Positions 28,725 to 50,578 of a DNA stretch of 64,000 nt are shown piece by piece. The stretch is from Ruminiclostridium cellulolyticum H10. GTDB lineage: Bacteria > Bacillota > Clostridia > Acetivibrionales > DSM-1351. Where the stretch lies: positions 1,262,001-1,326,000 of the forward strand of contig NC_011898.1 of NCBI RefSeq assembly GCF_000022065.1, read 5' to 3'. Numbering within the stretch: the stretch's first letter is position 1; every line of letters starts with the position of its first letter. The notes under the pieces were generated by a model. The model was not told the DNA's origin. It ran no database searches and was given only the letters and a program-made list of their open reading frames with translations. Made by a program: the position numbers and the translations under genes.

Positions 28725-28846
28725 TCTGTAAAAGGAATGCGAGTTCAACAGTACAAACTGAGCAGGCGATGGACCTTTCATAGAGGTACATGGGGCCGGG
28801 CCACCCAGTGAGTGGCAGCAGATTGCAATCATGCACATCTGTGGGA
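28725..28846 (+). promoter_or_regulatory. NiCo-type (czcD motif) riboswitch aptamer
   Basis: The leader carries features I recall from the NiCo riboswitch, which binds Ni2+ or Co2+: AACTGAGCAGGCGATGGACC, then GGGGCCGGGCCACCC and GGCAGCAG, arranged as several short helices around a junction. The right end merges with the terminator at 28833-28876, so metal binding can prevent termination. The downstream gene is a cation P-type ATPase, matching the known use of this class in heavy-metal export. Boundaries are approximate. Confidence 0.75.
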
Positions 28847-28876
28847 CAGTAGTATGTTCCACGGGTGTGCTTTTTT
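28833..28876 (+). terminator. Riboswitch-controlled terminator
   Basis: A 14-bp stem (GCACATCTGTGGGA, 28833-28846, with 28857-28870, three G-U pairs), 10-base loop and six Ts form an intrinsic terminator 80 bp before the ATPase gene. Its 5' arm would overlap the aptamer's closing region. Confidence 0.85.
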
Positions 28877-28957
28877 AATACCTGACGGAACGACCTTGAA
28901 TGAAGTGCCATAAGGGAAATTTACGCCGGTGATAAGGCGAAAATGGAGGATTCTTTT

Positions 28958-32108: not shown

Positions 32109-33347
32109 ATGGAAGATCAGAGATGGAATTTTCCCAGAAATGGGTTGAGCATGGACCAAATTAAGGAATATATGAACCCTGGCAGAAATTATGATTGCTT
32201 AGACAATGGCAAGGTGTTTCTCGGATATCCGCAGACTACTCCCCACCCTATTGCTATTAAGACGTACAAGAATTATCTGCAATATAACGATAACCATGTG
32301 GGGACATTTAGTAACAATAACACTGACTTGAATATATCCAGAAAAATGGAGAAACAGTTTATCGAAATGTTAGGTGATTTGTATGGAGATATTGAAGCAG
32401 ATGGTTATGTTACATCAGGGGGTACAGAGGGTAATATTATGGGAATATGGGTAGGAAAATATTACCTTGGCGGAGGGGAGACAGATAACCTTTGCCTGAT
32501 AAAAACATACCTTACACATCAATCAATTGATAAGGCTTGCAGCTTAAACAATATTACAAACATAATTGAAATTCCATATAACCAAAATTTTGAGATGGAT
32601 ACCAATTTACTTAGAAATGAAATTGATTTTCAGATTGAATCCGGTAAAAACAGAATTATAATTGTTGCTACAGTAGGCTATACAATGACGGGGACAAGTG
32701 ATCCCATTGATGAGATTGATAAAATAATACAGGATTATTCCAGAAATAAAGATGTCAGTTTTTATCTTCACGTTGATGCAGCTATTGGAGGGCTTGTATA
32801 TCCGTTTTGCAAAAAGGAAGATTTTGCATTCCAATATCCTAGTGTTAAGTCTTTAACTGTTGATCCTCATAAAATGGGATATGTACCTTTTTCAGCCGGT
32901 GTTTTCCTTTGCAGACGCAATTTGCAGGATTGTGTTGCAATCCCTATAAAGTATGCAAAAACCGTTATGGATAAAACATTGGTCAGTTCAAGAAGTGCGG
33001 CAGCAGCAGCAGCATGCTGGACAACCTTCAACTATTTGGGCATAGCGGGATTTGAAAAAAAAATAAAAAAGCTTATTTCTATCAAGGAGTATTTAGTTGA
33101 AAAAGTCTTGGCTGATAAATTGGCTGTATTAATTTCCGATCCGGGGACTAATATGGTATGCCTGTACTTTGATTCTCTTGCTCAGGGATTACTGCCTGAA
33201 TGGATTGAAAAAAAGTATACCTTGGACGGATTTTTGTTGAAATGTAAAGACGAAATGATTATATGCTACAAGGTATATATCATGCCTCATGTTACTAAAA
33301 GAGCTATTCTTCAGTTTGTTGATGACATTCGAGCGTTAGCCTGCTAA
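32109..33347 (+). CDS. PLP-dependent group II amino acid decarboxylase
   Basis: A 412-residue decarboxylase related to histidine/tyrosine/aspartate decarboxylases. The cofactor lysine is in VDPHKMGY near residue 256, with TSGGTEGN (phosphate-binding) near 105 and HVDAAIGG near 220. ATG 32109 with AAAGGA 6 bases upstream is chosen over two GTG codons at 32091 and 32094. It opens a group of about nine co-directional genes and would supply an amine building block. The amino acid substrate cannot be decided by eye; MfnA-type tyrosine or aspartate decarboxylases use the same motifs. Confidence 0.87.
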   Translation: MEDQRWNFPRNGLSMDQIKEYMNPGRNYDCLDNGKVFLGYPQTTPHPIAIKTYKNYLQYNDNHVGTFSNNNTDLNISRKMEKQFIEMLGDLYGDIEADGYVTSGGTEGNIMGIWVGKYYLGGGETDNLCLIKTYLTHQSIDKACSLNNITNIIEIPYNQNFEMDTNLLRNEIDFQIESGKNRIIIVATVGYTMTGTSDPIDEIDKIIQDYSRNKDVSFYLHVDAAIGGLVYPFCKKEDFAFQYPSVKSLTVDPHKMGYVPFSAGVFLCRRNLQDCVAIPIKYAKTVMDKTLVSSRSAAAAAACWTTFNYLGIAGFEKKIKKLISIKEYLVEKVLADKLAVLISDPGTNMVCLYFDSLAQGLLPEWIEKKYTLDGFLLKCKDEMIICYKVYIMPHVTKRAILQFVDDIRALAC

Positions 33348-33414
33348 AGAGTAAAAATCGATTATTTTGTATATTGAATATTTTATTTGAATTTATAAAA
33401 AGGGGGAACTTATA

Positions 33415-34497
33415 ATGCCAGAAAAAACAGGACTGTCAATCCCGTGTCAATGGGATAAAGACAGCCTCATTGAGATTCTCAACTACGGGGTAAGTAAAGA
33501 AATTGACATTAAGGAAGTGTACGGGACAGCGTCCTTTGAAAATCTGCCGCATGGAAGAGCTTTTGAGGTTACCAAGCGAATCGATAAAAATGATGCACTG
33601 GAAATTAAGAAAATAATTTCAGAAAAAGGCATTACATTTGCCTATCTTATTAATGCACCGCTTGAATTGGATTCATACGAATTTTTAGAAAATGAACTGG
33701 ATTGGATAGTAAACGATTTTAAGGCAGATTCGATTACAATAAGCTCTTTAAAGCTTATGAAGTTTGTTCGTGCCAAATATCCCGATTTGAAAATTAATGT
33801 ATCAACTATTGCCGGGGTTAAGACTGTTGAAGATATGAAACAGTATCTTCCAATCAATCCCAGCAAGTTTATAACGCATCATGATATAAACAGAAACTAT
33901 AAGGATTTGGAAGAAATTATAGAGTTTTTAAGGGAAAAGAATATAGACTTTGAGGTTATGCTCAACGAAAGCTGTCTGAGGAGATGTGCCAGACGTGATG
34001 AGCATTATAGCACGCTTGGGAAAGGATGCGGTGATAGTGAATTCCATTTATGGTGTAACAGCTTAAAGGTATCGCATCCATATCAGCTTATCATGTGTAA
34101 TTTTATTCGTCCGGAAGACTTAAAAGTATATGAAGATAAAGGGATTAAACTATTTAAGGTAACAGGAAGGTCAAAACCATTGGGCTGGCTCCAGGAAGTG
34201 GTAAGAGCTTATTTAAACAGAGAATACAATGGAAATCTGATTCGTCTTTTAGGGGCTGATCCCAAACTGGAAGCGGAACGGTGGATATATATATCCAATA
34301 AAGCGTTAGATAATTTTCTGGAAAATTATCCTAAAAATGGAGACGTCGGAGAGGAAATAAGATATTGCAAAAATATAATTTTTGACTTATACAGTAAAAA
34401 TGAATTTGCAATAAAAAATGATTTTATAAAGCCAGAGATAAAGGACAGGCAATTATCTTTCAAAATAGAAAAAGATATTTATGCATGGAATTACTAA
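33415..34497 (+). CDS. U32-family (peptidase U32-like) iron-sulfur protein
   Basis: A 360-residue protein of the U32 family. The TIM-barrel-like N-terminal half (SITISSLKLMKFVRAKYPDL, INVSTIAGV) leads to a cysteine-rich segment: ESCLRRCARRDE near 185, then single Cys in GKGCGDS, LWCNS and IMCNFIRPEDL. Several U32 members (UbiU/V, RlhA, TrhP) are oxygen-independent hydroxylases with a [4Fe-4S] cluster, not peptidases. GGGGGAAC precedes the ATG. In this cluster an anaerobic hydroxylation step is a reasonable inference. Confidence 0.78.
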   Translation: MPEKTGLSIPCQWDKDSLIEILNYGVSKEIDIKEVYGTASFENLPHGRAFEVTKRIDKNDALEIKKIISEKGITFAYLINAPLELDSYEFLENELDWIVNDFKADSITISSLKLMKFVRAKYPDLKINVSTIAGVKTVEDMKQYLPINPSKFITHHDINRNYKDLEEIIEFLREKNIDFEVMLNESCLRRCARRDEHYSTLGKGCGDSEFHLWCNSLKVSHPYQLIMCNFIRPEDLKVYEDKGIKLFKVTGRSKPLGWLQEVVRAYLNREYNGNLIRLLGADPKLEAERWIYISNKALDNFLENYPKNGDVGEEIRYCKNIIFDLYSKNEFAIKNDFIKPEIKDRQLSFKIEKDIYAWNY

Positions 34498-34520
34498 TAA
34501 AGACAGGGGATATTTGAAAA

Positions 34521-35603
34521 ATGGAAATTAATAATTTTGATTTTTTTAAAGTGGGAACGGTATTCAATCCTGTAAAGTGCTACAAAACACCGGAAGCAAA
34601 GGGAAGAAGAATAAGTATTCAGTACCCTTCCCGTCTAAATGCAATGGCAATAGATCCGAGCAAAATAGTAGAAAACAAAAATATGAAATACACTCCGGGT
34701 GAAATAGTATTTTCTACCCAGATTTTTTTAGAAATAGAAGTCAAGCTATTGGAAAACGAAGAAATTATCGTATGTAACTCAGTTTCGGATAGAAAAACGG
34801 TTGTTGAGCATTCCTGCAAAATAATGAAGAAGGCATTGGGCTACACTGGGGGATTTGAAGTTAATGTGCAAAGTTACCATAATCTAAAGCATTGTGGTTT
34901 GGGGTCAACCGGTTGTTTACAAGCAGGTGTCGCAGCCGCAATAAATCATTTATTTGGCTCGCCCATTGATGCCAATGACCTTATTCGATACTTGGCTCAG
35001 AATTATGGAGAGGAAATAGACGGCGACCCTGTTCATTTAAATCCTGTTCAATGTATTGGTGGTTCGGCAGCCTCGGGATTACGTCAAGGTGGAGTATTGG
35101 TGATTGCCGGCGAAAATACAGTTATAGCTGCTGCCGATATTTCGGAAAGCTATGAGGTTATAATCGGTATACCGGAGGATTTTGATTTCGTAGATTCAAA
35201 AGCTCAATTTGAAGAAGAAAAAGAGAACCTGGACAAATTTCTAGAGTGCGGTAAATGCCATAAGGACGAAATAGCTTACAATATACTACATTATTTTTTA
35301 CCTGCTATGGAGAGAGAAAACTTAAAAACAATGGGGGATGTCATCTACGATTATCGGTATAAAAAAGGAAGTATACAAAATTGTGCATATACATATCCGG
35401 GCTTGGTTGAACTGATGGAGCGATTGTCGTTTCTTAAAACAGAGGGCTATGTAGATGTTTTATCTATATCATCCGTCGGCCCTGCTGTCTTTGCCATTGC
35501 TAAAGACGTAAGCCGTTGTACCGAAGCCTTTAAAGAAAACTCTATGAGAATTATAAAAACTAAAATAAATAACTGTACTTACAAGGTACAATGCTTGGAG
35601 TGA
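34521..35603 (+). CDS. GHMP-fold protein, beta-RFAP-synthase-like
   Basis: A 360-residue protein with the GHMP nucleotide-binding motif HCGLGSTGCLQAGVAAAI near residues 122-139. Other parts resemble beta-ribofuranosylaminobenzene 5'-phosphate synthase more than sugar kinases: a YPSRLNAMAID start segment, GGSAASGLRQGG in place of the RSGIG loop, GIPEDFDF, a FLPAM stretch and a C-terminal SSVGPAVFAIA. That family joins PRPP to an aromatic or heteroaromatic acid, forming a C-riboside with loss of CO2; ForT-type enzymes of C-nucleoside pathways belong to it. The gene overlaps the next frame and is followed by a phosphatase. A true kinase, such as an L-threonine kinase, is the main alternative. 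Confidence 0.65.
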   Translation: MEINNFDFFKVGTVFNPVKCYKTPEAKGRRISIQYPSRLNAMAIDPSKIVENKNMKYTPGEIVFSTQIFLEIEVKLLENEEIIVCNSVSDRKTVVEHSCKIMKKALGYTGGFEVNVQSYHNLKHCGLGSTGCLQAGVAAAINHLFGSPIDANDLIRYLAQNYGEEIDGDPVHLNPVQCIGGSAASGLRQGGVLVIAGENTVIAAADISESYEVIIGIPEDFDFVDSKAQFEEEKENLDKFLECGKCHKDEIAYNILHYFLPAMERENLKTMGDVIYDYRYKKGSIQNCAYTYPGLVELMERLSFLKTEGYVDVLSISSVGPAVFAIAKDVSRCTEAFKENSMRIIKTKINNCTYKVQCLE

Positions 35604-35608
35604 TAAGC

Positions 35609-36697
35609 ATGAATTATATGAACGCTTATGAAGATTTGAGAAATGTTCCGGCCTATTATGACTATTCTTTAAGTTTTAATAGGGACGAGTCAATTTTAGA
35701 AATTCTCAAGAATATCCAAATGCATGAAGTAGTTGAGATGCTTAACAGGTATCCTCAGCAAAGCTATTTTGAGTTCAAGGAGCTTTTGGGTTTAAGCCAT
35801 CCGAAGATGACAGTTGTCCTTGGCAGCGGCTCTGAAGATTTAATATGGAGGATTAATAATTTTATTTTAAGAAACAAAAAGGTAGGAGTAATTTTACCGA
35901 CTTTTTATAGAATATATCAGACCTTACAAGAGCCATGCTTTATAAATATACCCTACGATATCGATAATGAGGTATTGGATATTTGCAGTTTGAGAAAAGC
36001 AATAGATGAAGGAAAATATGAGGCCGTGTGGATAACTAACCCTAATCCAATTACGGGAAAGGGATTTTACGCAAGTGAATTACTAAATGTAATAGAAGCT
36101 AATAAGGACACATTGTTTATTGTTGATGAGGCTTCAGTTGATTCGGTTATGGATATTGATAGGTTTTCGATGCTAAACAGCGGTTATTATTTAAAAAACT
36201 TAGTTGTAATAAAAACTTTTTCAAAGTTTTATGGTTTGCCGGGGATGCGTCTTGGCTATGTTGCAATAAGTGATGAGCTTGCCGATTGCCTGGAGAATTG
36301 GGGACAGGTATTTCCTGTAAGTAGTTTTAGCATCTATATGGCAAAAAAAATACTTGAACATAAAAAAATCTTCATGGATATCCGAAAAAAAATAAATCAA
36401 AATAGAGACTTGATGACTTCACTGTTAAATAGTTCTTCCACGGTTGTACCATATAAATCATTGACCAATACATTGGTTATCGGAGGTCGCAGCACTCAAT
36501 ATAATCTATGGCAAATACTAAAAGGGAAGGGAATATTAAGCTTTTCATTAGATGAGGAAAAGGGAATGCTCTTCTCAAACTGTGTAAGAATAACAATTCA
36601 CAGCGGTAAGGAGAGTTTTGACTATCTGTACAATGGCATTAAGGAGTTGCTGTGTGAACTAGAGGGCAATAATAGAGTTTATTCGGTAAATATGTAA
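35609..36697 (+). CDS. PLP-dependent aminotransferase, class I/II (HisC/CobD-like)
   Basis: A 362-residue fold-type I PLP enzyme. The cofactor lysine is in IKTFSKFYGLPGMRLGY near 205; upstream are GSGSEDL (phosphate loop), WITNPNPITGKG and DEASVD. It belongs to the HisC/CobD group, which contains both aminotransferases and threonine-phosphate decarboxylases. The start at 35609 has GGAGTGA at 35597-35603, inside the end of the GHMP gene, and lies 6 bp after its stop, so the two are translationally coupled. Reaction unknown; it could transaminate or decarboxylate a phosphorylated amino acid intermediate. Confidence 0.83.
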   Translation: MNYMNAYEDLRNVPAYYDYSLSFNRDESILEILKNIQMHEVVEMLNRYPQQSYFEFKELLGLSHPKMTVVLGSGSEDLIWRINNFILRNKKVGVILPTFYRIYQTLQEPCFINIPYDIDNEVLDICSLRKAIDEGKYEAVWITNPNPITGKGFYASELLNVIEANKDTLFIVDEASVDSVMDIDRFSMLNSGYYLKNLVVIKTFSKFYGLPGMRLGYVAISDELADCLENWGQVFPVSSFSIYMAKKILEHKKIFMDIRKKINQNRDLMTSLLNSSSTVVPYKSLTNTLVIGGRSTQYNLWQILKGKGILSFSLDEEKGMLFSNCVRITIHSGKESFDYLYNGIKELLCELEGNNRVYSVNM

Positions 36698-36722
36698 ACA
36701 ACTCATTTTAGGGGGTAGGGCT

Positions 36723-37601
36723 ATTAATAAGTATCTTTACATAAGCGATTTGGATGGAACATTGTTAAGTAGCAATGCGTGCATGCTGGATGAATCTATT
36801 TATAGATTGAATCGTATGATATGTGACGGTCTTATGTTTACGTTTGTTACAGCAAGAGATTGGTTAAGTTCAAGAGAAATTATGTCTGAAGTCAATTTGA
36901 CATTACCTGTTTCAGTGTGTAACGGAAGAGCGGTTGTAGATTTTCAAACAGGAAAAATGCAAAAGGGCTATTACATAAAGAGTGATAAGGTGATGAAAAT
37001 CATACAGACAGCTTATCAATATTCTCTATTTCCCAATATAAGTGTATATCATCAGGGGCGTATTCAGACTTGCTATGTTGCTGTACATCAACGTAGTAAT
37101 AGGGATTATTATCTGAACAGGCTAAAAATGAAAGAAAGTATGACATTTCAAGTTCCATCTATTAATGAAGCAATAACTGAAAATGTTATTTCAATTGCTT
37201 TTGTGGATTCAAGGGACAAAATAAGAAAATTTTGTGCTGCTTTTGATTATAAAAATCAAGAATCTCTAAGTATTCATGTATACAATGATCCATTTGATAA
37301 AACCATAGAAATTGTAGATATATTATCCGATACAGCATCAAAAGGTGTTGCTGCAAGTGATATAGCGAATTTATGCGGTATTTTTGCAAAGGAGCAGATT
37401 GTTTCTTTTGGAAATGACGAGAATGACATAGAACTCCTTAAAGCTTCCGGCACAGGAGTTGCTGTGGGTGACAATTTGGGTTTATTGGCTGAGTATACGG
37501 CTATTTGCTTGAATTACCAAGAAGGTTTGTCTGTTTTAGATTTTTTGGAACAGCATTTTTACAATAAAAACTATGAAAGAAAGGTTGTGATACAAAAATG
37601 A
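36723..37601 (+). CDS. HAD-superfamily phosphatase (Cof-like), apparent ATT start
   Basis: A 292-residue phosphatase. Motif I (SDLDGTLLSS) must be intact for function, but the only start-like codon that includes it is ATT at 36723, giving NKYLYISDLDGT; no ATG, GTG or TTG lies between the upstream in-frame stop at 36687 and the motif. A G-rich ribosome site (36711-36720) is well placed. Motif II-like FVTARDW, a Cof-type cap and motif IV SFGNDENDIELL follow. It overlaps the next gene by 4 bp. In the cluster it would remove phosphate from an intermediate, for example a C-nucleotide. Confidence 0.8.
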   Translation: MNKYLYISDLDGTLLSSNACMLDESIYRLNRMICDGLMFTFVTARDWLSSREIMSEVNLTLPVSVCNGRAVVDFQTGKMQKGYYIKSDKVMKIIQTAYQYSLFPNISVYHQGRIQTCYVAVHQRSNRDYYLNRLKMKESMTFQVPSINEAITENVISIAFVDSRDKIRKFCAAFDYKNQESLSIHVYNDPFDKTIEIVDILSDTASKGVAASDIANLCGIFAKEQIVSFGNDENDIELLKASGTGVAVGDNLGLLAEYTAICLNYQEGLSVLDFLEQHFYNKNYERKVVIQK

Positions 37602-38284
37602 GTAAAAATACAGAAAGGGCACTGAATTATTGGAATAATTGTGACATAATTCATGAGTTTGCAAATGCTCAGGTGCCCCAATACTGGAAAGAATTCTTTT
37701 TAGAAATTCTGCTTCCTCAAGAATGTAGTGTACTGGATTTGGGCTGCGGAGGAGGACGAAATACCCAAATGCTCGTATCAATGGGATTTAATGTCCGGGC
37801 ATGTGATTTGCATCAAGGTATGGTAGATGCCACCCGCCAAAGGATAAAGCCCTTTACTGACGGCCAAGATGCAGAAATGATTGTGCGACAAGGCAGTATG
37901 CTGCGATTACCATACGAAGATAATTATTTTAATATTGTATTATCCAATGGTATTTATCATAATGCTTCTAATGTCGAAGAATTTGAGACGGCAATAAAGG
38001 AAACAGGACGGGTTCTGAAGGAAGATGGACAGTTATGTCTGAATGTATTTACTGAGGAATATGTAGAAGCGAATTTACAAAAACAGCAGAAGCCATTTTT
38101 ATATATTACTCCGGATAATCTGGATATGGTTCTTCTTCCCATAGACAACATACTTGAAATTTTAGAAAGGTATTCTTTTAGACCGGAGGGAGAATTGGTG
38201 CAGTACCGTTCTAAAGTAGCTACTGGAGAGCGGAGCGTGTTAAGGGGTGTTTTTAGGAAAAACAAAAGTACTCGTAGCATTTGA
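37598..38284 (+). CDS. SAM-dependent methyltransferase
   Basis: A 228-residue class I methyltransferase. Motif I is VLDLGCGGGRNTQML near 48-62, the acidic motif II residue is in RACDLHQG, and the post-I motif is NIVLSNGIYHN. It overlaps the phosphatase gene by ATGA and precedes the radical SAM gene by 22 bp. It probably methylates an O or N atom of the cluster product. No signal peptide. Confidence 0.85.
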   Translation: MSKNTERALNYWNNCDIIHEFANAQVPQYWKEFFLEILLPQECSVLDLGCGGGRNTQMLVSMGFNVRACDLHQGMVDATRQRIKPFTDGQDAEMIVRQGSMLRLPYEDNYFNIVLSNGIYHNASNVEEFETAIKETGRVLKEDGQLCLNVFTEEYVEANLQKQQKPFLYITPDNLDMVLLPIDNILEILERYSFRPEGELVQYRSKVATGERSVLRGVFRKNKSTRSI

Positions 38285-38306
38285 ATAATTTGAAAGGAGT
38301 GTTTTA

Positions 38307-39557
38307 ATGAGTAAAAAAGTACGGCTAATATGTAATTTGAACTGTAGCAGAAGACAGATGGACATGGTAAAGCTGGAATCCTATCTTTCTGCAAACGGCT
38401 ATGAGGTGGTTGAAGATGAAAAACAGGCGGATCAAATTGTTTATACAACATGTGGTTTTATAAATGAAACGGCCCAAGTGGCATTTAATGAAATAGAAAG
38501 GCTGAAATCACTGCCTGCTGAGCTTATTGTTACAGGCTGCCTGCCTGATACAGATTCTGAAACGTTCAATAAGATACATAGCGGTAAAGTAGTCCGCAAT
38601 ACAGAATTATATAAATTTGACGATGTTTTCGGAGGAGATACTAAATTTCAGGATATCCCTGACGCACATGATATGCCATGGGGAAAGGGTGAATACTTTT
38701 GTGTCGAGGTTAGCCGAGGGTGTCCTGAAAATTGTTCATATTGTGCAACAAAATGGGCTGTTGGAAAAATGAAGAGTAAGCCTATACAAAAGTGTATAGA
38801 GGAAATTGAAGAATTCAAAAAAAGTACGTTTAGTAAGGTCGTAATTAATGGTGACAATGTGGGGGCTTACGGGCTTGATATAAAAGAAACCTTTGGTACA
38901 TTAGTTTCAGCTCTGCCAATAGAGGATGAAAAATACAAGGCATATATTGATTCATTGCATCCAAGATGGCTATTGCTATATTATGATGCAGTACTGGCGG
39001 CAATAAGCAAAAACCGCTTTGGTATGCTTGTATCTGCTATACAGGCAGGTAATGAGAGGGTCTTGGAGCTAATGCGGCGTAAAGCAGATATGAAAAAATT
39101 AAAGGAGGCTTTTATTGAAATAAAGCAAAAAAGCCCGGAAATAGTTTTAGGAACTGAAGTTATTGTAGGATTTCCAACAGAAAGCGAAAGTGACTTTATC
39201 GAAAGTGTAGATTTTATTTTAAGTACAAAATTAGATTGGGGTAATATTTTCGCCTTCTCACCGAAAAAAGGAACCGAGGCTGCGGCAATCAAAGGTCAGG
39301 TTGAAGAAGCCGAAAAAATAAGAAGAATCAATTATCTGGTAGAAAAGCTCAAGGAAAATGGATATTTTATTTTTAAGGAAGAGAAATCACAAGCTGTTAT
39401 TTTTAGCAATGCCGATATTTGCATTAATGCAGACAAGAGCCCGAACCCATATTGGCAGACCTGTTTTGACACTGTTTGTCTTGACAGAAAGAAACAGAAT
39501 CAAATTCGTAGCGATTTAAGGGAAGGAAAAATAAAAGTCAGTGAAGTAAGTTTCTAA
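38307..39557 (+). CDS. Radical SAM methylthiotransferase-like protein (MiaB/RimO family)
   Basis: A 416-residue protein with the two iron-sulfur parts of methylthiotransferases: an N-terminal UPF0004 domain with Cys in CNLNCSRR, TTCGF and TGCLPD, and a radical SAM domain with CPENCSYC near residue 139. The C-terminal part is not a recognisable TRAM RNA-binding domain, which argues for a small-molecule or peptide substrate instead of tRNA. GAAAGGAG precedes the ATG. Within the cluster it could insert sulfur or a methylthio group. Confidence 0.82.
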   Translation: MSKKVRLICNLNCSRRQMDMVKLESYLSANGYEVVEDEKQADQIVYTTCGFINETAQVAFNEIERLKSLPAELIVTGCLPDTDSETFNKIHSGKVVRNTELYKFDDVFGGDTKFQDIPDAHDMPWGKGEYFCVEVSRGCPENCSYCATKWAVGKMKSKPIQKCIEEIEEFKKSTFSKVVINGDNVGAYGLDIKETFGTLVSALPIEDEKYKAYIDSLHPRWLLLYYDAVLAAISKNRFGMLVSAIQAGNERVLELMRRKADMKKLKEAFIEIKQKSPEIVLGTEVIVGFPTESESDFIESVDFILSTKLDWGNIFAFSPKKGTEAAAIKGQVEEAEKIRRINYLVEKLKENGYFIFKEEKSQAVIFSNADICINADKSPNPYWQTCFDTVCLDRKKQNQIRSDLREGKIKVSEVSF

Positions 39558-39577
39558 TCCATACAAATATGTTTAAC

Positions 39578-39624
39578 CTGCCGGAATTCCATACTGCTAT
39601 GCAATGCAGTTTGTATTCCGGCAG
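39578..39624 (+). terminator. Intercistronic stem-loop
   Basis: CTGCCGGAAT (39578-39587) pairs perfectly with 39615-39624 and an inner ACTGC/GCAGT stem forms within. No T run follows, so it may be a processing or stability element between the two radical SAM genes. Confidence 0.5.
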
Positions 39625-39678
39625 AAATTATTAAGCTTATAATTTCCTATTTTTTATGATGGGTAAGGAGGAATAGTA

Positions 39679-41151
39679 TTGAGTGAAAATAAATACGTTT
39701 GCCTGATACAACCGCATACATCTTATAAGTTGGCAACTATTCAGCCGGCACTCTTTGACCAGTTTGACAGCATTGGCTTGCTTGCCTTAGCAGGATATCT
39801 GAGGGAGCAGGGTTATACAGTAGATATCTTGCATTTAGCTAAGGCATACAGAAATGGTTATACAAAGAAGCAGGTGGAAGAAAAAATTAAAACACGTAAA
39901 CCGATTCTATTTGGTATAGGAAATATGTGGCTTCATCAAAGTGTAGGTATGCTGGAAACAGCACAAATGATCCGAGAAATCTATGGTGACATACCGATTG
40001 TAGTTGGCGGTCAGCATGCCAGTTTTTTTGCAAGGGATATTGTACAGGATTATTCTAATCAGATAAATGGTGTTATTGTAGGGGAAGGGGAAGAAACACT
40101 TTATCAGTTGGTAAAGTCAGTTGAGGAAGGAGGTACCATAGACCCAACTGTTCCGGGCTTTATGTCTAAACAAAAGGACGGAGAAATATTGTATACACCA
40201 AGGATTGTGACATTGGAGATGGATAGTTTGCCATTTATGTCCCACAAGGGGGTCTGGCCTGAGGTTCGCGCAAAAAACGGAGACATTATCCCCTCCGTAG
40301 CCGCGATAGATACTGTCAGGGGAGGGTGTCCAACAAACTGCGGGCATTGTCTTGAAGCAAATAACTTAGGAAAGCATGGAAGAGAAAAAAGGGCTTTTCA
40401 TTCTCCTGAGTATTTGGCTGAGCAGCTAAAAAGGTATCTTGACGAAGGAAAAACATACATTGTTATACAGGATTCATTTTATGCAAATGGGGATGGACCT
40501 ATTGCAGAATTTATTGAAAGAGCAAGCAAGGATAATCTTAGAACAGAGGCTATGCACTTTTTTATAGAGCCGGGTTATGTAAGCAGCGACATATTTAAGG
40601 TGCTTGAGAGATTTCCCGCTGATAAGGTTGCTATTGACTATGGTATAGAGACCGGGTCAGAAAAAGTTGCAAAAAACATGAATAGATTCTTCAAAATGGA
40701 CAGCATATATAGAGATATCGAAGCCTTGGGTAAGACAAATACACTGGCTACTGCATGGTGGCTTATTAGCCTTCCCGGGGAAACAGAGGAAGATGTAAGG
40801 CTAACGGAGGAGGCAATAAAGAATACAATTGATCTGGGAGTGTTTACCGAAAGAGTTTCTCAAATGCTGCTTTTTCCTCAAAGTGAATTGTATAAAAACC
40901 GACATTTGTATGATATTAATGCATACTTTCATAATTATAACGATTTCAAGGTTTTTTCTACGGTTGAACGCAGGGAAAATGGCATTTATCCGGAGCTAGT
41001 GACACATGATATGCCCTATCAGACTAAAGAGGATACACTTATGCTGCTCAGAGATTTGAAAAAGACAGTACGCGTGGCTACCGAAAGCTCAAGGCATTTG
41101 GAGAAAATGCAAAAACTCGGATACCAGCTGAATGATTACGACTTTTTTTAA
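39679..41151 (+). CDS. B12-binding-domain radical SAM protein
   Basis: A 490-residue protein. The N-terminal Rossmann-like domain (LALAGYLREQGYTVDILHL, VVGGQHASF, GVIVGEGEETL) matches cobalamin-binding domains of class B radical SAM enzymes; the base-off DxHxxG motif is not obvious. The radical SAM cluster is CPTNCGHC near residue 217, followed by DYGIETGSEKV and LISLPGETEED. It starts with TTG at 39679 behind GGAGG. Such proteins methylate unactivated carbon or phosphorus or perform rearrangements. It is the second radical SAM enzyme of the cluster. Confidence 0.83.
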   Translation: MSENKYVCLIQPHTSYKLATIQPALFDQFDSIGLLALAGYLREQGYTVDILHLAKAYRNGYTKKQVEEKIKTRKPILFGIGNMWLHQSVGMLETAQMIREIYGDIPIVVGGQHASFFARDIVQDYSNQINGVIVGEGEETLYQLVKSVEEGGTIDPTVPGFMSKQKDGEILYTPRIVTLEMDSLPFMSHKGVWPEVRAKNGDIIPSVAAIDTVRGGCPTNCGHCLEANNLGKHGREKRAFHSPEYLAEQLKRYLDEGKTYIVIQDSFYANGDGPIAEFIERASKDNLRTEAMHFFIEPGYVSSDIFKVLERFPADKVAIDYGIETGSEKVAKNMNRFFKMDSIYRDIEALGKTNTLATAWWLISLPGETEEDVRLTEEAIKNTIDLGVFTERVSQMLLFPQSELYKNRHLYDINAYFHNYNDFKVFSTVERRENGIYPELVTHDMPYQTKEDTLMLLRDLKKTVRVATESSRHLEKMQKLGYQLNDYDFF

Positions 41152-41175
41152 ACATAAATAAAGGGATGAAAAGAA

Positions 41176-41698
41176 ATGGTTGGAGAGTTTAAAAATATAT
41201 CTTTATACTACGATGTTATGCATATGAGTGATAATGAATATAAAAATGAAACAGACCAGATTAGGGAATTTATTAAAAAATATAAAAAGAGTGCGGGCAA
41301 TTCGTTATTCGATGTTGCTTGCGGTACCGGAAGACATATGGAAATACTTAAAGACAGCTATGAGGTATGCGGGGTTGATTTATCGGAGAATATGCTGGAA
41401 CATGCAAAACAGAGGCTGCCGCATACTGAGTTTATTAAATGTAATATGATTGATTTTAGTCTTTCTAAAAGTAGCTGCTATAGCGGTTATAAAGAGAAAA
41501 TCCTTTGATATGGCAGAGGTTGAATACCATCATCTGATCTATAGTGATAATAAGGTTGTTCATAACGATGGAGTAATTGAGCTTGGTCTTTTTTCAGATA
41601 AGGAGTATAAAGATGCAATTGAGTCAGCGGGATTGACAGTATTAGTAAGATATTCGGGAAAGAGAATTGAAATGGGAGCATATGTTTGTCGTTTATAG
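41176..41698 (+). pseudogene. Decayed SAM-dependent methyltransferase
   Basis: The frame from 41176 encodes the N-terminal part of a class I methyltransferase (FDVACGTGRHME and GVDLSENMLEHAK) and stops at 41508. A second frame from about 41450 encodes what looks like the C-terminal part of the same family (VEYHHLI, ELGLFSDKEYKDAIESAGL). Family members are about 240 residues; the middle section containing the core strands is missing. I infer an internal deletion near 41450-41480 plus a frame shift. The gene sits between the B12 radical SAM gene and the acyltransferase. Confidence 0.7.
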
Positions 41699-41752
41699 AA
41701 ACGGATACTCACATAGTTTTGATGATAAATGATTCTAGTGGGAGGATTAAGT

Positions 41753-42391
41753 GTGAAGTATATAGAAATGGAAAAGAGTCCCAGGAAAAATATATACAAC
41801 CTATTTAGACAAATGGATTATCCCCATTTGAATTTGTGTGCAAATGTAGATGTCACAAGATTGCATAATTATACAAAGCAGTATAGGTTATCATTCTTTA
41901 AAACAATGATGTTCTTTGTGTCAAAAACAGCAAATGAAATTAAAGAATTTCGTTATCGTATTCAAGGAGAAAATGTAGTTGAGTACGATACGATACACCC
42001 ATCATACATTTTACTGACTAAGGAAGATGCCTTCAATTTTTGTACGGTTGAATTTAAGGATGATTTTATTGAGTTTTATTCAGAAGCCGTACGTACGGCA
42101 AAAGAATTGCAGGGTAATATTGACTTGGAACATGAACCTGAGCGTGATGACCTTATATTAATTACGTGTACTCCGTGGGTTTCTTTTACAAGTATTATGC
42201 ATCCTGCACATATGCATCCGGTAGATTGCATTCCTAGAATTGCATGGGGAAAATATTTTGATGAGGGAGAAAGAAAAAAGATGCCATTGGGGGTGCAAGC
42301 ACATCATTCACTGATGGACGGATTGCATGTGGGTAAATACTATACTCTGCTTCAAGAGTATTTAGATGATCCGGAGCCTCATTTAAAATAA
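41753..42391 (+). CDS. CatA-like acyltransferase (chloramphenicol acetyltransferase family)
   Basis: A 212-residue CoA-dependent acyltransferase with the CAT fold. The catalytic histidine is in QAHHSLMDGLHVG near residue 186, replacing the usual HHxxxDG pattern exactly; the Phe-rich N-terminal YNLFRQMDYPHLNLCANVDVT is typical. GTG 41753 with GGGAGGA at 41739-41745 is preferred over the ATG at 41729, which lies upstream of that ribosome site. It closes the cluster and may acetylate the product, either as tailoring or as self-protection. Direct chloramphenicol resistance cannot be excluded. Confidence 0.83.
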   Translation: MKYIEMEKSPRKNIYNLFRQMDYPHLNLCANVDVTRLHNYTKQYRLSFFKTMMFFVSKTANEIKEFRYRIQGENVVEYDTIHPSYILLTKEDAFNFCTVEFKDDFIEFYSEAVRTAKELQGNIDLEHEPERDDLILITCTPWVSFTSIMHPAHMHPVDCIPRIAWGKYFDEGERKKMPLGVQAHHSLMDGLHVGKYYTLLQEYLDDPEPHLK

Positions 42392-42403
42392 TTATGGCAA
42401 AAA

Positions 42404-42435
42404 ACAGATAAGTCCAAGTGACTTATCTGTTTTTT
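42404..42435. terminator. Bidirectional terminator between convergent units
   Basis: An 11-bp stem (ACAGATAAGTC, 42404-42414, with 42420-42430) has a T run on the right and an A run on the left, so it can end both the biosynthetic cluster and the opposite-strand HelD gene. Confidence 0.9.
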
Positions 42436-42446
42436 CATAGGTTTAC

Positions 42447-44555
42447 TTATTTATTTTCTATTAATTCGGTTAAACTTCCGGTATATAGAAGTGATAACTT
42501 GTGCATGGCACGAGTACAGGCAATATACAAAAGTTTACGGTCATAATCAGTACAATAGGTTTCGCTGTTTGCGGAAGGGATGATTACCTCATCAAATTCA
42601 AGTCCTTTTGACATTTGGATAGAGGTAACTGTAATTCCATTAACAAACTGAAGGCTGTCAGGTGTAATTAACTGGATATCGTAATCCTTGGATAAAGTAT
42701 CGTATAGCGAAGCTGCCATGCTATTTGTTTTCAGGATAATTCCCAGTGTTACATTGCCGCTTTGCTGAAAAGCTTCAATTTTATCTTTTATTTTTATAAG
42801 CTCATCCTGTGTGTCATTGCACAATATAAGTTCGGGTACATCTCCGTGACGTTCTATCGGTTCCAACTTTGCAACATTTTGTATCAGCTTTGCAAAATTA
42901 ATAATTTCGTATGTTGAACGGTAGCTCTTATTCAGTTCCACGTAATTGACACCTTCGTAAACTTTTTTGAGATCATCGAGGGAATGAAGGTGATTGGGAT
43001 TAAGAGACTGCCCAAAATCCCCAAGTATTGTTTTTTTGCATTTAAAGAGCTTATTTATAACAATATATTGAGCAGGTGTGTAATCCTGCATTTCATCAAT
43101 GATAACATGCTTTATTAGTTGGTTTTCCTTTAAACCCTCAAAGGCAGAATGAAAGTACATAAAAGGATAAACATCGGCCCACTCCAGTAATTTCTTATCA
43201 GGCATTACGAATTTCTCAGGTAATTTTATTGTCTTATAAAAGTCTTTATAAAGAGCTAAGGTGTTTTTAATCTTAAACATATCACCTAATTTCTTTAGAA
43301 CTGCTTTTGGCTTTGGCAATTCATCTCCCATAAGATTTTCAGTTTGGAATTTATCGTAAATATCTGACGATACCTCAAACAACCGTTTCTTGACAGGATA
43401 GTTTTTATATGCATTGTACCGTGACAGAATCCATTCCCTGTCAGCTTTAAAATGAGCAAATTCATAATCAGTGGGTTCGAAATATTCAGCTGCTGCATAT
43501 TCCAGATATTGATCCATCATTTTTACAAAGTCAAATCCAGATTTAAATTTTACTCTTTCTGCCCAAGCAGGATCATTTGTTTCGAGAGGGTCTTTGTCAG
43601 GCTCAAATTTAATTATTCCATCCAATTGTATTTCGGCAACATCAGCAAAACTCATTTCGAAGATTGGTTCTTCACCTAGTTCAGGCAATACATTGGAAAT
43701 GTAGTCTGCGAAAACCTTATTTGGGGATAGTATAACTACATTTTGAGCAGACAAGGTTTCCTTGAACCGATACAGTAAATACGCTATTCGGTGTAGTGCG
43801 ATGGACGTTTTACCAGAACCGGCAACTCCCTGGATAATAAGAGTTTCTGCTTGCTCATTTCTGATAATCTGATTCTGTTCTCTTTGTATGGTAGAGATTA
43901 TTGTCTTCATTTTTTCATCTGATGTATGGCTTAGCTCCCTTTGCAGTACATCATCCTGAATGTTTATTGAGCTTTCTAAAACATATTTCATTTGCCCCTG
44001 GGCTATTTTTAATTGACGTTTACGGGTCAGATTCCCATTAACTCTTCCAATTGGAGCATCATATCCTGCTTGACCCAATTCACAATCATAAAACATGCTT
44101 GAGACAGGAGTCCGCCAGTCAAAAATCAGAATATTTGACTGATCTGCATCAGAAAAGGAAAATCTGCCGATGTAGAAAACAGAGGGGAGCTCGCTTTCAT
44201 CTTCACTAAAGTCGATCCTTGCAAAGTATGGAGATTCTATCAGCTTGTTAATTCTTTCCCTCATTTTTACAGCAAGAGTTCCTGCTCTTTCAATCTGTTT
44301 CATAGAGATCTCATTTTGGAATATTTCCTTTGGGTCTATTTCACTGCGATAATCTGCAAGATATCGTTTAGAATTCATATACTGCTCATCATACTGTTTG
44401 ACTGATTTACTATAGTTTTTTAAAGCATCATTCAATTTTTCTTTAATTTCCTCAAGATGTTCGATTTCCTCAGGAAAATTGTTAAATATGCTTGAATCAT
44501 CCGCATTGTCTTCTATGCGGTTTAAAGGTTTTTCTTGTATTTGTTTACCATTCAT
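42447..44555 (-). CDS. HelD-like RNA polymerase recycling ATPase (UvrD-type)
   Basis: A 702-residue superfamily 1 ATPase. Walker A is GVAGSGKTSIALHR near 244-257, Walker B VIIDEMQDYTPAQY near 503, and the late helicase motif MSKGLEFDEVIIP near 645. The long coiled-coil N terminus (residues 20-70) before the ATPase is typical of HelD, which frees stalled RNA polymerase and in some bacteria protects it from inhibitors. It converges on the biosynthetic cluster. A link to self-resistance is possible but HelD is also a common housekeeping gene in Bacillota. Confidence 0.87.
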   Translation of the reverse strand: MNGKQIQEKPLNRIEDNADDSSIFNNFPEEIEHLEEIKEKLNDALKNYSKSVKQYDEQYMNSKRYLADYRSEIDPKEIFQNEISMKQIERAGTLAVKMRERINKLIESPYFARIDFSEDESELPSVFYIGRFSFSDADQSNILIFDWRTPVSSMFYDCELGQAGYDAPIGRVNGNLTRKRQLKIAQGQMKYVLESSINIQDDVLQRELSHTSDEKMKTIISTIQREQNQIIRNEQAETLIIQGVAGSGKTSIALHRIAYLLYRFKETLSAQNVVILSPNKVFADYISNVLPELGEEPIFEMSFADVAEIQLDGIIKFEPDKDPLETNDPAWAERVKFKSGFDFVKMMDQYLEYAAAEYFEPTDYEFAHFKADREWILSRYNAYKNYPVKKRLFEVSSDIYDKFQTENLMGDELPKPKAVLKKLGDMFKIKNTLALYKDFYKTIKLPEKFVMPDKKLLEWADVYPFMYFHSAFEGLKENQLIKHVIIDEMQDYTPAQYIVINKLFKCKKTILGDFGQSLNPNHLHSLDDLKKVYEGVNYVELNKSYRSTYEIINFAKLIQNVAKLEPIERHGDVPELILCNDTQDELIKIKDKIEAFQQSGNVTLGIILKTNSMAASLYDTLSKDYDIQLITPDSLQFVNGITVTSIQMSKGLEFDEVIIPSANSETYCTDYDRKLLYIACTRAMHKLSLLYTGSLTELIENK

Positions 44556-44589
44556 AAGTGAGTCTGTTTATTCCTTCCTTTCTACCAAA

Positions 44590-45420
44590 TTAATTAGATA
44601 TAATCATTTTCTGTGTAGGATAACCAAATTCGGTTAACAGTTCTGCCTCAGCAAAGCCAAGCTCTTTAAGAGCCTTCCGATAACCTGTATCTGCTTTATC
44701 CCCTTCGCGGAAAGTAGTAATAGTAATATTTTTATGTTCAAGGAGCTCTGAAATTGCTCTATCAAGCAAAGCCTTTGTTATTCCCTGTTTCCTGAAGAGC
44801 GGGTGGACTCCAAGAAAATCTATGCTTCCTGTTGAATAAGAAATCATCATAATTCCAATTGCAAAGCTGCCCTCAGTCATAATTAATGCACTGCGTTCCA
44901 GAATACATTGGTTAAGTGCCTTAATGTGTAATTCCTCTACTAGGTTTGGAAATCCGTCAATCACTAGCCTCACCAGTTCCATCCAGCGAGGAATATCTAA
45001 TTCTGTTGCAAAACGCAAATCTCTTTTTAGTTTCCTCTTTTTTAAATTTGGGTCAGGATGGCTGTCGAATTTGTATTCCAACTGCAATGGATAAAACACC
45101 TCGTTTCTTCTGAATTGTAAGGGGGATTGCTTATACATTGCCTTAAAAATGTTGGTAAATGCCTGCTGACTTGTATAGCCTGCAAGAAGTGCAATCTCCA
45201 TAATATTTTTTCCAGAAAAAACTAATAGCTTTGCAGCTTCAGTCAGTTGGCGCCGCTGTATGTAGTCATGTATTGTCATACCGACTATCTCAGTAAATAT
45301 ACGGTGTAGATGATATTTTGAATAATGTACTGCACTTGCGACTGTATCTAAATCTATTTTTTCTGTGAGATGGTTCTCAATGTAACCAATTGCCGCTACA
45401 ACATTATCAAGGCTGTTCAC
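44590..45420 (-). CDS. AraC-type regulator fused to a GNAT domain
   Basis: A 276-residue two-domain protein. Residues about 1-105 form an AraC DNA-binding domain with two helix-turn-helix units (LDTVASAVHYSKYHLHRIF and IMEIALLAGYTSQQAFTNIF). Residues about 125-276 look like a GNAT acetyltransferase (FLGVHPLFRKQGITKALLDRAI is the acetyl-CoA motif A). It starts at GTG 45420 with AAAGGAGG upstream. It is 34 bp upstream of HelD in the same direction, so it may control or be cotranscribed with it. Acetyl-CoA could serve as signal or the GNAT part as a resistance enzyme. Confidence 0.82.
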   Translation of the reverse strand: MNSLDNVVAAIGYIENHLTEKIDLDTVASAVHYSKYHLHRIFTEIVGMTIHDYIQRRQLTEAAKLLVFSGKNIMEIALLAGYTSQQAFTNIFKAMYKQSPLQFRRNEVFYPLQLEYKFDSHPDPNLKKRKLKRDLRFATELDIPRWMELVRLVIDGFPNLVEELHIKALNQCILERSALIMTEGSFAIGIMMISYSTGSIDFLGVHPLFRKQGITKALLDRAISELLEHKNITITTFREGDKADTGYRKALKELGFAEAELLTEFGYPTQKMIISN

Positions 45421-45927: not shown

Positions 45928-46725
45928 ATGTTTAAATGTGAGAAGCTTACAGATCAAATTATTCAGAAACTATATCGAAACAATTCTCTCGAAGGCGAGA
46001 ATGAAATGGAGTATTGGAATAGACTTTGGCAGAAGAGTATTGATTATTACAAGGAAAAAGGTATACCCGAAGAAATCGAAAGTCTTTGGTGGAAATACTT
46101 ATACGATGAAATGTTGGAGCATTACATAGAGCTTTTAGGAACAATAAATAATAAAACCATATGTGAATTAGGATGTGGTTCAGGCTATTCAAGTATAATG
46201 ATGGCAACAAAAGGGGCTAAGGTAACACTAGTTGATTATGCACCACTTTCCTCGGTTTATTCAAAGCATATTTGTCAATATATGAATATCGATACTGATA
46301 AGATTAATTTTATAACAGATGATGCTTTTTCAAAAGATCTGGATATAGGACAATTTGATGTTGTATGGAACTGTGGTGTTATAGAGCATTATAAGTGGGA
46401 CGAAGCCGTTGAGTTGATAAAAATTATGGCGAAGCATGCAACTAAAGGAGGCAAAGTTATGGTAACTTTACCAAACCTTTTATCACCGGAATTTATTTAC
46501 TTAACGGTTACAGTCGGAAAAGGGAGCGAAAAATATTATTCTTATCGAATGCTAAAAAAAATTATGCAGGAGGCAGGATTATCAAATGTGAAAGTACAGG
46601 CAATTAATTACTGGTTGCCATCAAATATGTCTGCAAGTTTTTCCAATAAATTGAGGGAGGTTAAATTTTTCAGACATTTCAAAGGATTGTGCTGGCTTTT
46701 TACCGGCATAGGGGAAAAACAATAA
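45928..46725 (+). CDS. SAM-dependent class I methyltransferase
   Basis: A 265-residue methyltransferase with motif I CELGCGSGYSSIMM near 78, acidic residue in TLVDYAPL, motif post-I FDVVWNCGVIEHYKWDEAV and the C-terminal YYSYRMLKKIMQEAGL. AGGAGG precedes the ATG. Its substrate is unknown. It lies 250 bp before the TetM-like gene in the same direction, separated by a possible attenuator. Confidence 0.82.
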   Translation: MFKCEKLTDQIIQKLYRNNSLEGENEMEYWNRLWQKSIDYYKEKGIPEEIESLWWKYLYDEMLEHYIELLGTINNKTICELGCGSGYSSIMMATKGAKVTLVDYAPLSSVYSKHICQYMNIDTDKINFITDDAFSKDLDIGQFDVVWNCGVIEHYKWDEAVELIKIMAKHATKGGKVMVTLPNLLSPEFIYLTVTVGKGSEKYYSYRMLKKIMQEAGLSNVKVQAINYWLPSNMSASFSNKLREVKFFRHFKGLCWLFTGIGEKQ

Positions 46726-46794: not shown

Positions 46795-46974
46795 ATAGCA
46801 CAAAGCATCTAACCCCTTTGCAAATGCAGTAATTTTCATAATCCGGCCCCTGACTATACCTTGCTAAATTGTCAAATTCCAGACATACTGGTATCATATA
46901 ATAAAAGCTTGAGCAAACAGTCTCAAACGGGGCGTGGATTATATACAGACAGAATAAAGGATTTGAAATCAATC

Positions 46975-49617: not shown

Positions 49618-49642
49618 CTGAATCAAAGGAGCAGTTTAACTT

Positions 49643-50578
49643 ATGAAATTTTATTTTGCACCAATGGAGGGATTGACGGGTTATATTTATAGAAATGCAC
49701 ATAATGCTTTCTTTAATAGCATAGACAAATACTTTTCTCCTTTTATTATTGCAAATCAAATAGATGGTTTCAAGACCAGAGACCTGAAAGATATTTCGCC
49801 TGAAAATAATCAGGAGCTGGTTTTGATTCCACAAGTGCTTACAAATAATGCAAAAGACTTTATTTATACTTCAAAGAAAATTAAGAGTATGGGTTATACT
49901 GAGATAAATCTTAATCTGGGATGTCCTTCCGGGACTGTAGTCTCCAAAAACAGGGGCTCCGGATTTCTTGCAAAAAAAGAGGAGCTTGATGTTTTTTTGG
50001 AGGAAATTTTTTCTCAAGCTATAACTAAAATATCAATTAAAACCAGAATAGGCAAAGATCAGCCTGAAGAATTTTATGATTTAATACGGATATTTAACAA
50101 ATACCCTATAAATGAGCTTATTATACACCCTAGAATTCAAAAGGATTTTTATAAAAATAAGCCCAATATGAAAATTTTCAGGGATGCCTTGGCTGAAAGT
50201 AAAAATCCTGTCTGTTACAATGGTGACATTTTTACAGCAAAGGACTATAAAGAGTTTTGTAATGATTTTCCCGGTGTAGATACTCTGATGTTAGGCAGAG
50301 GATTATTAATGAACCCTGCATTAGCAGGGTATGTTAAAAATGGTAGAAAATTGGAAAAAAGTTTATTAAAGAAGTTCCACGACAAAGTATATAATGATTA
50401 TAAAGACATTCTTTCCGGGGAACGCAATGTCCTGTTTAAAATGAAAGAGCTGTGGTTTTATATGATAAATGTTTTTACCGACAATGAAAAATACGCCAAG
50501 AAAATTAAGAAGTCACAAAGATTATCTGATTATGATGAAGCTATATCCAGACTGTTTGAGGAACAGGAGATTGTTTAA
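49643..50578 (+). CDS. tRNA-dihydrouridine synthase family protein
   Basis: A 311-residue FMN enzyme reducing uridine in tRNA. It begins FYFAPMEGLTGYIYRNA, the FMN-binding start of the family; the catalytic Cys is in LNLGCPSGTV near residue 94; IKTRIG and LIIHPRIQKDFYK follow, then LMLGRGLLMNP near 218. AAAGGAG precedes the ATG, 25 bp after the fusion gene. Confidence 0.9.
   Translation: MKFYFAPMEGLTGYIYRNAHNAFFNSIDKYFSPFIIANQIDGFKTRDLKDISPENNQELVLIPQVLTNNAKDFIYTSKKIKSMGYTEINLNLGCPSGTVVSKNRGSGFLAKKEELDVFLEEIFSQAITKISIKTRIGKDQPEEFYDLIRIFNKYPINELIIHPRIQKDFYKNKPNMKIFRDALAESKNPVCYNGDIFTAKDYKEFCNDFPGVDTLMLGRGLLMNPALAGYVKNGRKLEKSLLKKFHDKVYNDYKDILSGERNVLFKMKELWFYMINVFTDNEKYAKKIKKSQRLSDYDEAISRLFEEQEIV

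Follow-up and report, generated by a model that had tools for sequence, protein, structure and literature searches.

A rare and conserved gene cluster of Ruminiclostridium cellulolyticum H10, probably biosynthetic, with a distant relative of beta-RFAP synthase and ForT

A 64,000-nucleotide stretch of the genome of Ruminiclostridium cellulolyticum H10, a non-pathogenic bacterium that degrades cellulose (contig NC_011898.1, positions 1262001-1326000 of a 4,068,724-bp single-contig genome; hereafter the window) carries at 32109-42391 nine intact enzyme genes and one broken methyltransferase gene, all on the + strand and numbered g1 to g10 in order (Table 1). Judged by sequence comparison, the cluster is a rare, conserved and real biosynthetic operon. 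With moderate confidence it can be read as a dedicated operon of anaerobes for the synthesis of a small molecule, in which the GHMP-fold protein g3, a distant relative of beta-ribofuranosylaminobenzene 5'-phosphate (beta-RFAP) synthase, would carry out a step like that of the related enzyme ForT. The genes are tightly spaced, the largest gap being 121 bp and the smallest a 4-bp overlap. All genes named in a first-pass annotation of this sequence are present where it placed them, on the + strand; nine are intact, and the remaining one, listed there as a dead methyltransferase, is a pseudogene in two pieces.

Conservation and distribution of the cluster

The nine intact genes occur in the same order and direction in four genomes: that of the window, a congener (genome G401, locus L009), Eubacterium ramulus ATCC 29099 (L014) and Lachnospiraceae bacterium UBA935 (L015). 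Identity to the window genes is 76-93% in the congener and approximately 32-70% in the other two. The ratio of nonsynonymous to synonymous substitution rates (dN/dS) between window and congener is 0.058-0.215 across the nine genes, with g3 and g8 lowest, and 0.091-0.104 across three flanking genes. Synteny of all nine in four genomes, together with dN/dS well below 1 for one pair of these genomes, takes the cluster beyond a chance arrangement. Linkage of the genes in relatives, on which the first-pass annotation depended, holds in all three relatives found to have them.

Occurrence of g3 is narrow. In searches of at most 400 genomes each, it was present in two of 11 genomes of the window's family and two of 391 sampled from its class (the window's own and the congener in both cases), and, among 397 genomes of the family to which E. 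ramulus belongs, in one, that of E. ramulus. A sample of the phylum yielded matches in six of 398 genomes, namely the window itself and five relatives at 24-27% identity. A scan of 84,980 species (one genome each), which used two exact peptide patterns and may miss members, including close relatives of the window's genome and that genome itself, returned 34 loci, two of which hold g3 at >60% identity. When 39 loci (L009-L047, many being short) were compared, the remaining cluster genes had relatives only in L009, L014 and L015, the sole exception being one weak methyltransferase match in L038. Scattered occurrence across two or more families, with the gene order kept, suggests horizontal transfer, and the cluster has probably passed between clostridial lineages. 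Carriage on plasmids was considered and dropped, no match to g3 being found at 1e-5 in 72,556 plasmid records. No published description of the cluster was found in the literature searched, a body whose scope does not extend to subscription papers and preprints.

Family placement and active-site residues of g3

The product of the gene at 34521, g3, had been assigned in the first-pass annotation to the relatives of beta-RFAP synthase, and profile ranking, structure comparison and phylogeny agree with that assignment. The curated beta-RFAP synthase model NF040726 was the best-scoring profile, at 46 of 328 bits and thus far below its cut-off; cut-offs were likewise missed for TIGR00144 (32.9 of 113.5 bits) and for curated homoserine kinase models (32.2 of 194 and 21.2 of 168.25 bits). 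Both beta-RFAP synthase models match all 13 aligned GHMP members, and in the four members tabulated the beta-RFAP synthase model outscores the kinase models (equivalog scores of 46.0, 41.8 and 37.9 bits for window, L014 and L015, with the highest-scoring kinase model at 32.2, 33.7 and 30.1). A Foldseek search with the predicted g3 model (predicted local distance difference test [pLDDT] 80.9, predicted template modelling score [pTM] 0.85) returned three ForT entries of the Protein Data Bank (PDB) at ranks 1-3, with E-values from 1.2e-15 to 1.9e-14. References for the alignment and tree were four plasmid-borne beta-RFAP synthase-like proteins, three annotated as such and the fourth with a record that carries no annotation there. 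In a tree of 27 rows, g3, its distant relatives and beta-RFAP synthases stand apart from ThrB, IspE and GalK with support of 90/84, and the distant relatives are nearest to g3 (93/87); three of ten ThrB loci were left out of this tree (L077, L079 and L080, with no mid-locus reading frame), and L073 and L081 start late. The g3 motif SSVGP resembles the SSWGP/TSWGP of beta-RFAP synthases and is unlike the SGxGP of the aligned kinases. Grouping of the protein with sugar or threonine-type kinases, the outcome that would have spoken against the earlier assignment, was not observed in profiles, Foldseek or tree. By sequence, the affinity of g3 to beta-RFAP synthase is real but distant.

In ForT, R19 and H99 are described as holding pyrophosphate and T106, R135 and S139 as binding the 5'-phosphate, while E211, the only variant confidently found inactive, is assigned as general base (PMC8183095, PMC9832568); three residues, including T106 and R135, are given as essential for binding of phosphoribosyl pyrophosphate (PRPP) by isothermal titration calorimetry (PMC8183095). 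Equivalents of R19 and H99 (R38 and H124 in g3) and of E211 (E233) are present in all four orthologues, the position of E233 being assigned by counting and not by superposed structures: E233 lies 28 residues before P261, as E211 lies 28 before P239, the Pro of a common PA motif, and this spacing is 29 in ten distant relatives. The combination of R38, H124 and E233 was found in 18 of 18 rows of g3, distant relatives and beta-RFAP synthases versus none of eight kinase rows, two of the latter beginning too late to cover the Arg column. At the opposite end of the donor site the correspondence breaks down. The positions of T106, R135 and S139 are occupied by G, Q and I in four of four g3 orthologues and are altered in the ten distant relatives too, although the R135 and S139 columns are less certain because this stretch of g3 is longer than in the references; within residues 157-196 of g3, there is no Arg common to all four orthologues. 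The aromatic-acid residues of ForT (S21, K263 and Q266) also read as altered in the alignment.

ForT-type chemistry is favored because the catalytic Glu, Arg and His are shared. The most economical reading is that g3 would retain the leaving-group and base chemistry while its donor site is rebuilt at the distal end. Since the 5'-phosphate pocket is rebuilt, something other than ordinary PRPP may serve as donor; alternatively, PRPP may be held in a new way. Formation of a C-glycoside by g3, which the first-pass annotation had proposed to occur with PRPP en route to a C-nucleoside-like product, is therefore plausible in view of the retained catalytic residues, but with T106 and R135 replaced in the four orthologues PRPP as the donor is unproven, as is a C-nucleoside as the product.

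Candidate pathway and competing explanations

Assignments of two other cluster enzymes bear on the type of chemistry. The g2 protein exceeds the cut-off of the U32 profile (PF01136, 28.3 versus 22.4 bits), and its predicted model (pLDDT 75.9, three sequences) has the U32 protein Mk0906 (5d88) as top PDB match in Foldseek (TMq 0.44, TMt 0.60); C11, C187, C191, C214 and C318 are invariant in the four orthologues. Characterized U32 hydroxylases are reported to require prephenate (PMC6599085, PMC11574389). The g7 protein reaches 224 bits with TIGR00089 (cut-off 251) and conserves both the N-terminal Cys of UPF0004 and CX3CX2C in four orthologues. A C-terminal TRAM domain is usual in the MiaB/RimO family, and at E 0.001 none was matched in g7 of the window or its L014 orthologue, suggesting a small-molecule substrate.

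Additional genes accompany the cluster in the two more distant genomes. Directly after the gene for the chloramphenicol acetyltransferase (CAT)-like protein g10, E. ramulus and UBA935 each encode a 3-deoxy-D-arabino-heptulosonate 7-phosphate (DAHP) synthase (248 and 261 amino acids), present thus in two of four clusters and matching the catalytic domain only. This gene is followed in E. ramulus by genes for S-adenosylmethionine (SAM) synthetase (MetK), an AraC-GNAT protein and a Mef-like MFS pump, with an AMP-forming acyl ligase approximately 800 bp past the pump, all co-directional. In UBA935, an AraC-GNAT gene overlaps a gene for a MATE pump, which in turn lies 14 bp upstream of g1. These additions are hints, pointing to a shikimate-linked precursor (or prephenate supply), heavy use of SAM and export; a prephenate requirement of U32 hydroxylases would fit the added DAHP synthase. 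Being absent from the window's own cluster, they lie outside the shared core.

In a candidate pathway, g3 would couple a shikimate-derived aromatic unit to a phosphorylated or pyrophosphorylated donor in a ForT-like step in which the Arg/His loop would hold the leaving phosphate and the Glu would act as base; the HAD enzyme g5 would remove phosphate afterwards. The pyridoxal phosphate (PLP) enzymes g1 and g4 may make or decarboxylate an amine, and the putative iron-sulfur protein g2 would catalyze an O2-independent hydroxylation in which prephenate may supply the oxygen. Methylation by g6 and g8, addition of sulfur or a methylthio group by g7 and acylation by g10 could decorate the compound, to be exported by the pump that sits with the cluster (MATE in UBA935, MFS in E. 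ramulus). Hydroxylation by g2 and methylthiolation by g7 are deduced from the family membership of the two proteins.

Several observations weigh against this assignment of a ForT-like biosynthetic operon, the replaced pocket residues among them. The window's own cluster is without DAHP synthase, exporter and ligase. A g2 sequence profile finds no U32 entry in the PDB, and g2 is without the motif CX6CX15CX3C given as usual for U32 hydroxylases (PMC11574389), from which UbiV is likewise reported to depart with CXnCX12CX3C (PMC6747719). Two homoserine kinase models also match 13 of 13 GHMP members (archaeal shikimate kinase, two of 13), homoserine kinase comes next after ForT in Foldseek at 2.6e-14, such that the lead of ForT is approximately 20-fold in E-value at best, and the tree support on the beta-RFAP synthase side is moderate, with a long g3 branch (2.65). 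These kinase similarities, together with a match of g3 to the GHMP N-domain and alignment of its YGE (162-164) with homoserine kinase, are what would be expected if g3 were an ATP-dependent GHMP kinase that phosphorylates a hydroxy-amino compound, with the CobD/HisC-like g4, which matches both profiles, acting on the resulting phosphate ester and the HAD enzyme dephosphorylating later. This arrangement, modeled on PduX and CobD of cobalamin synthesis, is a tentative possibility; profile ranking, tree, the Arg/His/Glu set and the SSVGP motif all favor the beta-RFAP synthase side instead.

The same profile, Foldseek and tree relatives, the conserved equivalents of E211, R19 and H99 and the HAD phosphatase in the operon are also consistent with condensation of PRPP and an aromatic acid by g3 to a C-nucleotide, subsequently dephosphorylated and decorated to a C-nucleoside-like metabolite. 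Such a route is unlikely given that Gly and Gln replace T106 and R135, two of the three residues described as essential for PRPP binding (PMC8183095); S21, K263 and Q266 are changed as well, which could mean no more than another acceptor. Modification of RNA by the operon is suggested by the membership of g2 and g7 in families of RNA hydroxylases and methylthiotransferases, respectively. It appears highly improbable, since g7 has no TRAM match, the decarboxylase, CAT-like protein, DAHP synthase and exporters have no evident role in RNA modification, and the distribution is very patchy. Synthesis of a small molecule with a ForT-like g3 step remains the preferred interpretation of the cluster.

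Table 1. Predicted genes of the cluster and its downstream flank. Identities of orthologues are given in the order congener/E. ramulus/UBA935.
Feature	Coordinates	Strand	Assignment	Matches and remarks	Identity (%)
g1	32109..33347	+	group II PLP decarboxylase, MfnA/histidine-decarboxylase-like	PF00282 107 bits; MfnA model 206 bits, under 299.4 cut-off; DPHK invariant; start ATG 32109, alternative GTG 32091	82/54/54
g2	33415..34497	+	U32-family protein, putative Fe-S O2-independent hydroxylase	PF01136, weak, 28 bits	
g3	34521..35603	+	GHMP-fold protein, beta-RFAP synthase/ForT side	PF00288; donor pocket altered	
g4	35609..36697	+	PLP enzyme, aminotransferase I/II, HisC/CobD-like	TIGR01141 148 bits, TIGR01140 118 bits, neither reaching cut-off; alternative ATG 35591	77/40/36
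g5	36723..37601	+	Cof-type HAD phosphatase	PF08282 118 bits; DLDGT/DLDDT conserved	
g6	37598..38284	+	SAM-dependent methyltransferase	PF08241 64 bits	81/51/50
g7	38307..39557	+	MiaB/RimO-type radical SAM methylthiotransferase family	PF00919 (UPF0004) and PF04055; no TRAM	
g8	39679..41151	+	B12-binding radical SAM enzyme	PF02310 and PF04055; TTG start; CX3CX2C present; dN/dS 0.058	93/70/66
g9	41176..41698	+	broken methyltransferase, pseudogene	two pieces, 41176-41508 and 41450-41698	
g10	41729..42391	+	CAT-like acyltransferase	PF00302 109 bits; orthologues suggest GTG start 41753	
HelD	42447..44555	-	HelD RNA polymerase recycling motor	NF041464 498.6 bits, cut-off 419; convergent, downstream of cluster	
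AraC-GNAT	44590..45420	-	AraC-type regulator fused to GNAT	PF12833 and PF00583; 34 bp upstream of HelD	
Flank methyltransferase	45928..46725	+	methyltransferase	59% relative also adjoins HelD in L015	

Boundaries, flanking genes and known systems

At the expected start of the g5 protein there is no ATG, GTG or TTG, and translation may begin at ATT 36723, which is preceded by a purine-rich stretch. The two pieces of g9 match separate parts of an intact 249-amino acid protein of UBA935 (L015:4448-5197). The g10 motif is HHxxxDG in the window, congener and E. ramulus proteins and NHxxxDG in that of UBA935. Between g10 and the HelD gene, a perfect 12-bp inverted repeat with a 5-base loop followed by T's (42403-42435) reads by eye as an intrinsic terminator; a terminator pattern scan did not list it, perhaps because A/T pairs prolong the stem into the T run. 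Terminator-like sites number 13 versus 5.6 in shuffles and promoter-like sites 41 versus 46.4, i.e., the latter are not enriched. The G+C content of the cluster (0.354-0.367) is not unusual for the window. A leader RNA that might reveal an amino acid was sought and dropped, Rfam at gathering scores giving no match in the cluster or in L009, L014, L015 and L061.

The HelD of the window has relatives at 88% identity in the congener G401 and 59% in the UBA935 genome, where the cluster-adjacent copy is the only one found at 1e-20; nine congeners without g3 contain HelD-matching pieces at only 31-43% identity, and E. ramulus gave no HelD match at 1e-20. Full-length AraC-GNAT relatives are present in E. 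ramulus (two) and in the UBA935 genome, and G401 and other congeners gave helix-turn-helix matches only. As a control, 299 genomes of the family that includes E. ramulus were searched, with only three candidates per genome scored for HelD: at least 46 carry HelD at E 1e-100, and at least 29 carry AraC-GNAT. In no fewer than three of these genomes (G958, G876 and G993, the frames being in pieces in the latter two) the two genes are adjacent; in an apparently overlapping family sample, g3 is found in E. ramulus only. HelD of Bacillus subtilis is reported to protect RNA polymerase from rifampicin (PMC12802891), and multiple HelD isoforms to be common (PMC8655204). A role for HelD as a dedicated self-resistance gene was considered and is weakened by the control, in which HelD occurs without the cluster, and by the result for E. 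ramulus. As the HelD/AraC-GNAT pair is found without the cluster, it represents an independent module now beside it, and is a hint, no more, that the product targets RNA polymerase. Because the pair adjoins the cluster, RNA polymerase enters as target in a more specific and, taken as a whole, improbable proposal: that the g3 family would form a third group of C-C-forming GHMP-fold glycoside synthases with a non-PRPP donor and that an oxygen-free route would lead to a methylated, thiolated and acylated aromatic C-glycoside antibiotic, made by clostridia with a gut species among them and acting on that enzyme.

The AraC-GNAT gene stands directly before HelD in the window (42447-45420, - strand), G958 (L082 and L085) and G876 (L086), whereas in UBA935 (L015:5339-7577) and, judged by eye, at the second E. 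ramulus copy (L057) it directly precedes a MATE pump gene. This fusion has the appearance of a general regulator that responds to drugs. Farther along the window (46861-50578, + strand) lie a gene for a Tet-protection/EF-G-like GTPase with a C-terminal YacP-like NYN domain and then, by eye, a Dus-like gene. This pair is found beyond the flanking genes in the window and directly before the cluster in G401 (L009:2768-6392), which indicates rearrangement of the region. Between the CAT-like gene and HelD of G401 there is also a gene that by eye resembles a transposase (L009:16844-18133). Upstream of the cluster, a NiCo riboswitch (28748-28851, + strand; 78.2 bits, gathering 37) lies just before a gene for an 845-amino acid protein (28943-31480, + strand), by eye a P-type cation ATPase, which is therefore probably nickel- or cobalt-controlled.

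Among characterized systems, the formycin and pyrazofurin clusters (ForT/PyfQ) are described as likewise combining a beta-RFAP synthase-like GHMP enzyme, a PLP enzyme and a final dephosphorylation (PMC8724604), and g3 keeps the catalytic Glu and the pyrophosphate-holding Arg and His of ForT. In contrast to those clusters, radical SAM and U32 enzymes here replace the pyrazole-forming genes, and the 5'-phosphate pocket is lost. The beta-RFAP synthase of methanopterin synthesis (MptG) falls on the same side of the GHMP tree as g3, but g3 is without the pocket motif GRGxRSGIG present in all four references, and the methanopterin or methanofuran genes adjoining the three annotated references have no counterpart at the window cluster.

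A four-gene operon encoding a GHMP protein, a TrpF-like isomerase, a zinc alcohol dehydrogenase and a DhnA-type aldolase is found repeatedly in Desulfobacterota and in syntrophic Bacillota (e.g., L020:156-4018, L027:9812-13655 and L034:8536-12512). It is complete in ten of 22 loci listed, several others ending at contig edges; domains were searched in L020, and the other loci were assigned by eye. To our knowledge, this operon is undescribed. Its GHMP proteins constitute the nearest tree family of g3 (93/87), sharing an EE pair and an altered pocket, and those aligned are also without the 5'-phosphate residues of ForT. They are nonetheless only 22-34% identical to g3, and the other eight enzymes of the cluster are absent save for the weak methyltransferase match. 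The 4'-thiothymidine cluster thmABC is similar in being a small radical SAM nucleoside-antibiotic cluster, but comprises three other genes, with MiaB, U32 and GHMP proteins unmentioned in the main text of its description (PMC12691670). The anaerobic U32 hydroxylases UbiU/UbiV, TrhP and RlhA share with g2 the U32 fold and several invariant Cys; the Cys spacing of g2 differs, and g2 is set in a biosynthetic operon.

Strict anaerobes account for few of the known biosynthetic pathways. A conserved operon of radical SAM, cobalamin-binding, U32 and C-glycoside-synthase-like enzymes, found also in the human gut species E. ramulus, would place several unusual reactions in one testable locus. Among those it would make open to test are C-C bond formation by a GHMP-fold protein with a new donor and the use of U32 hydroxylases in secondary metabolism.

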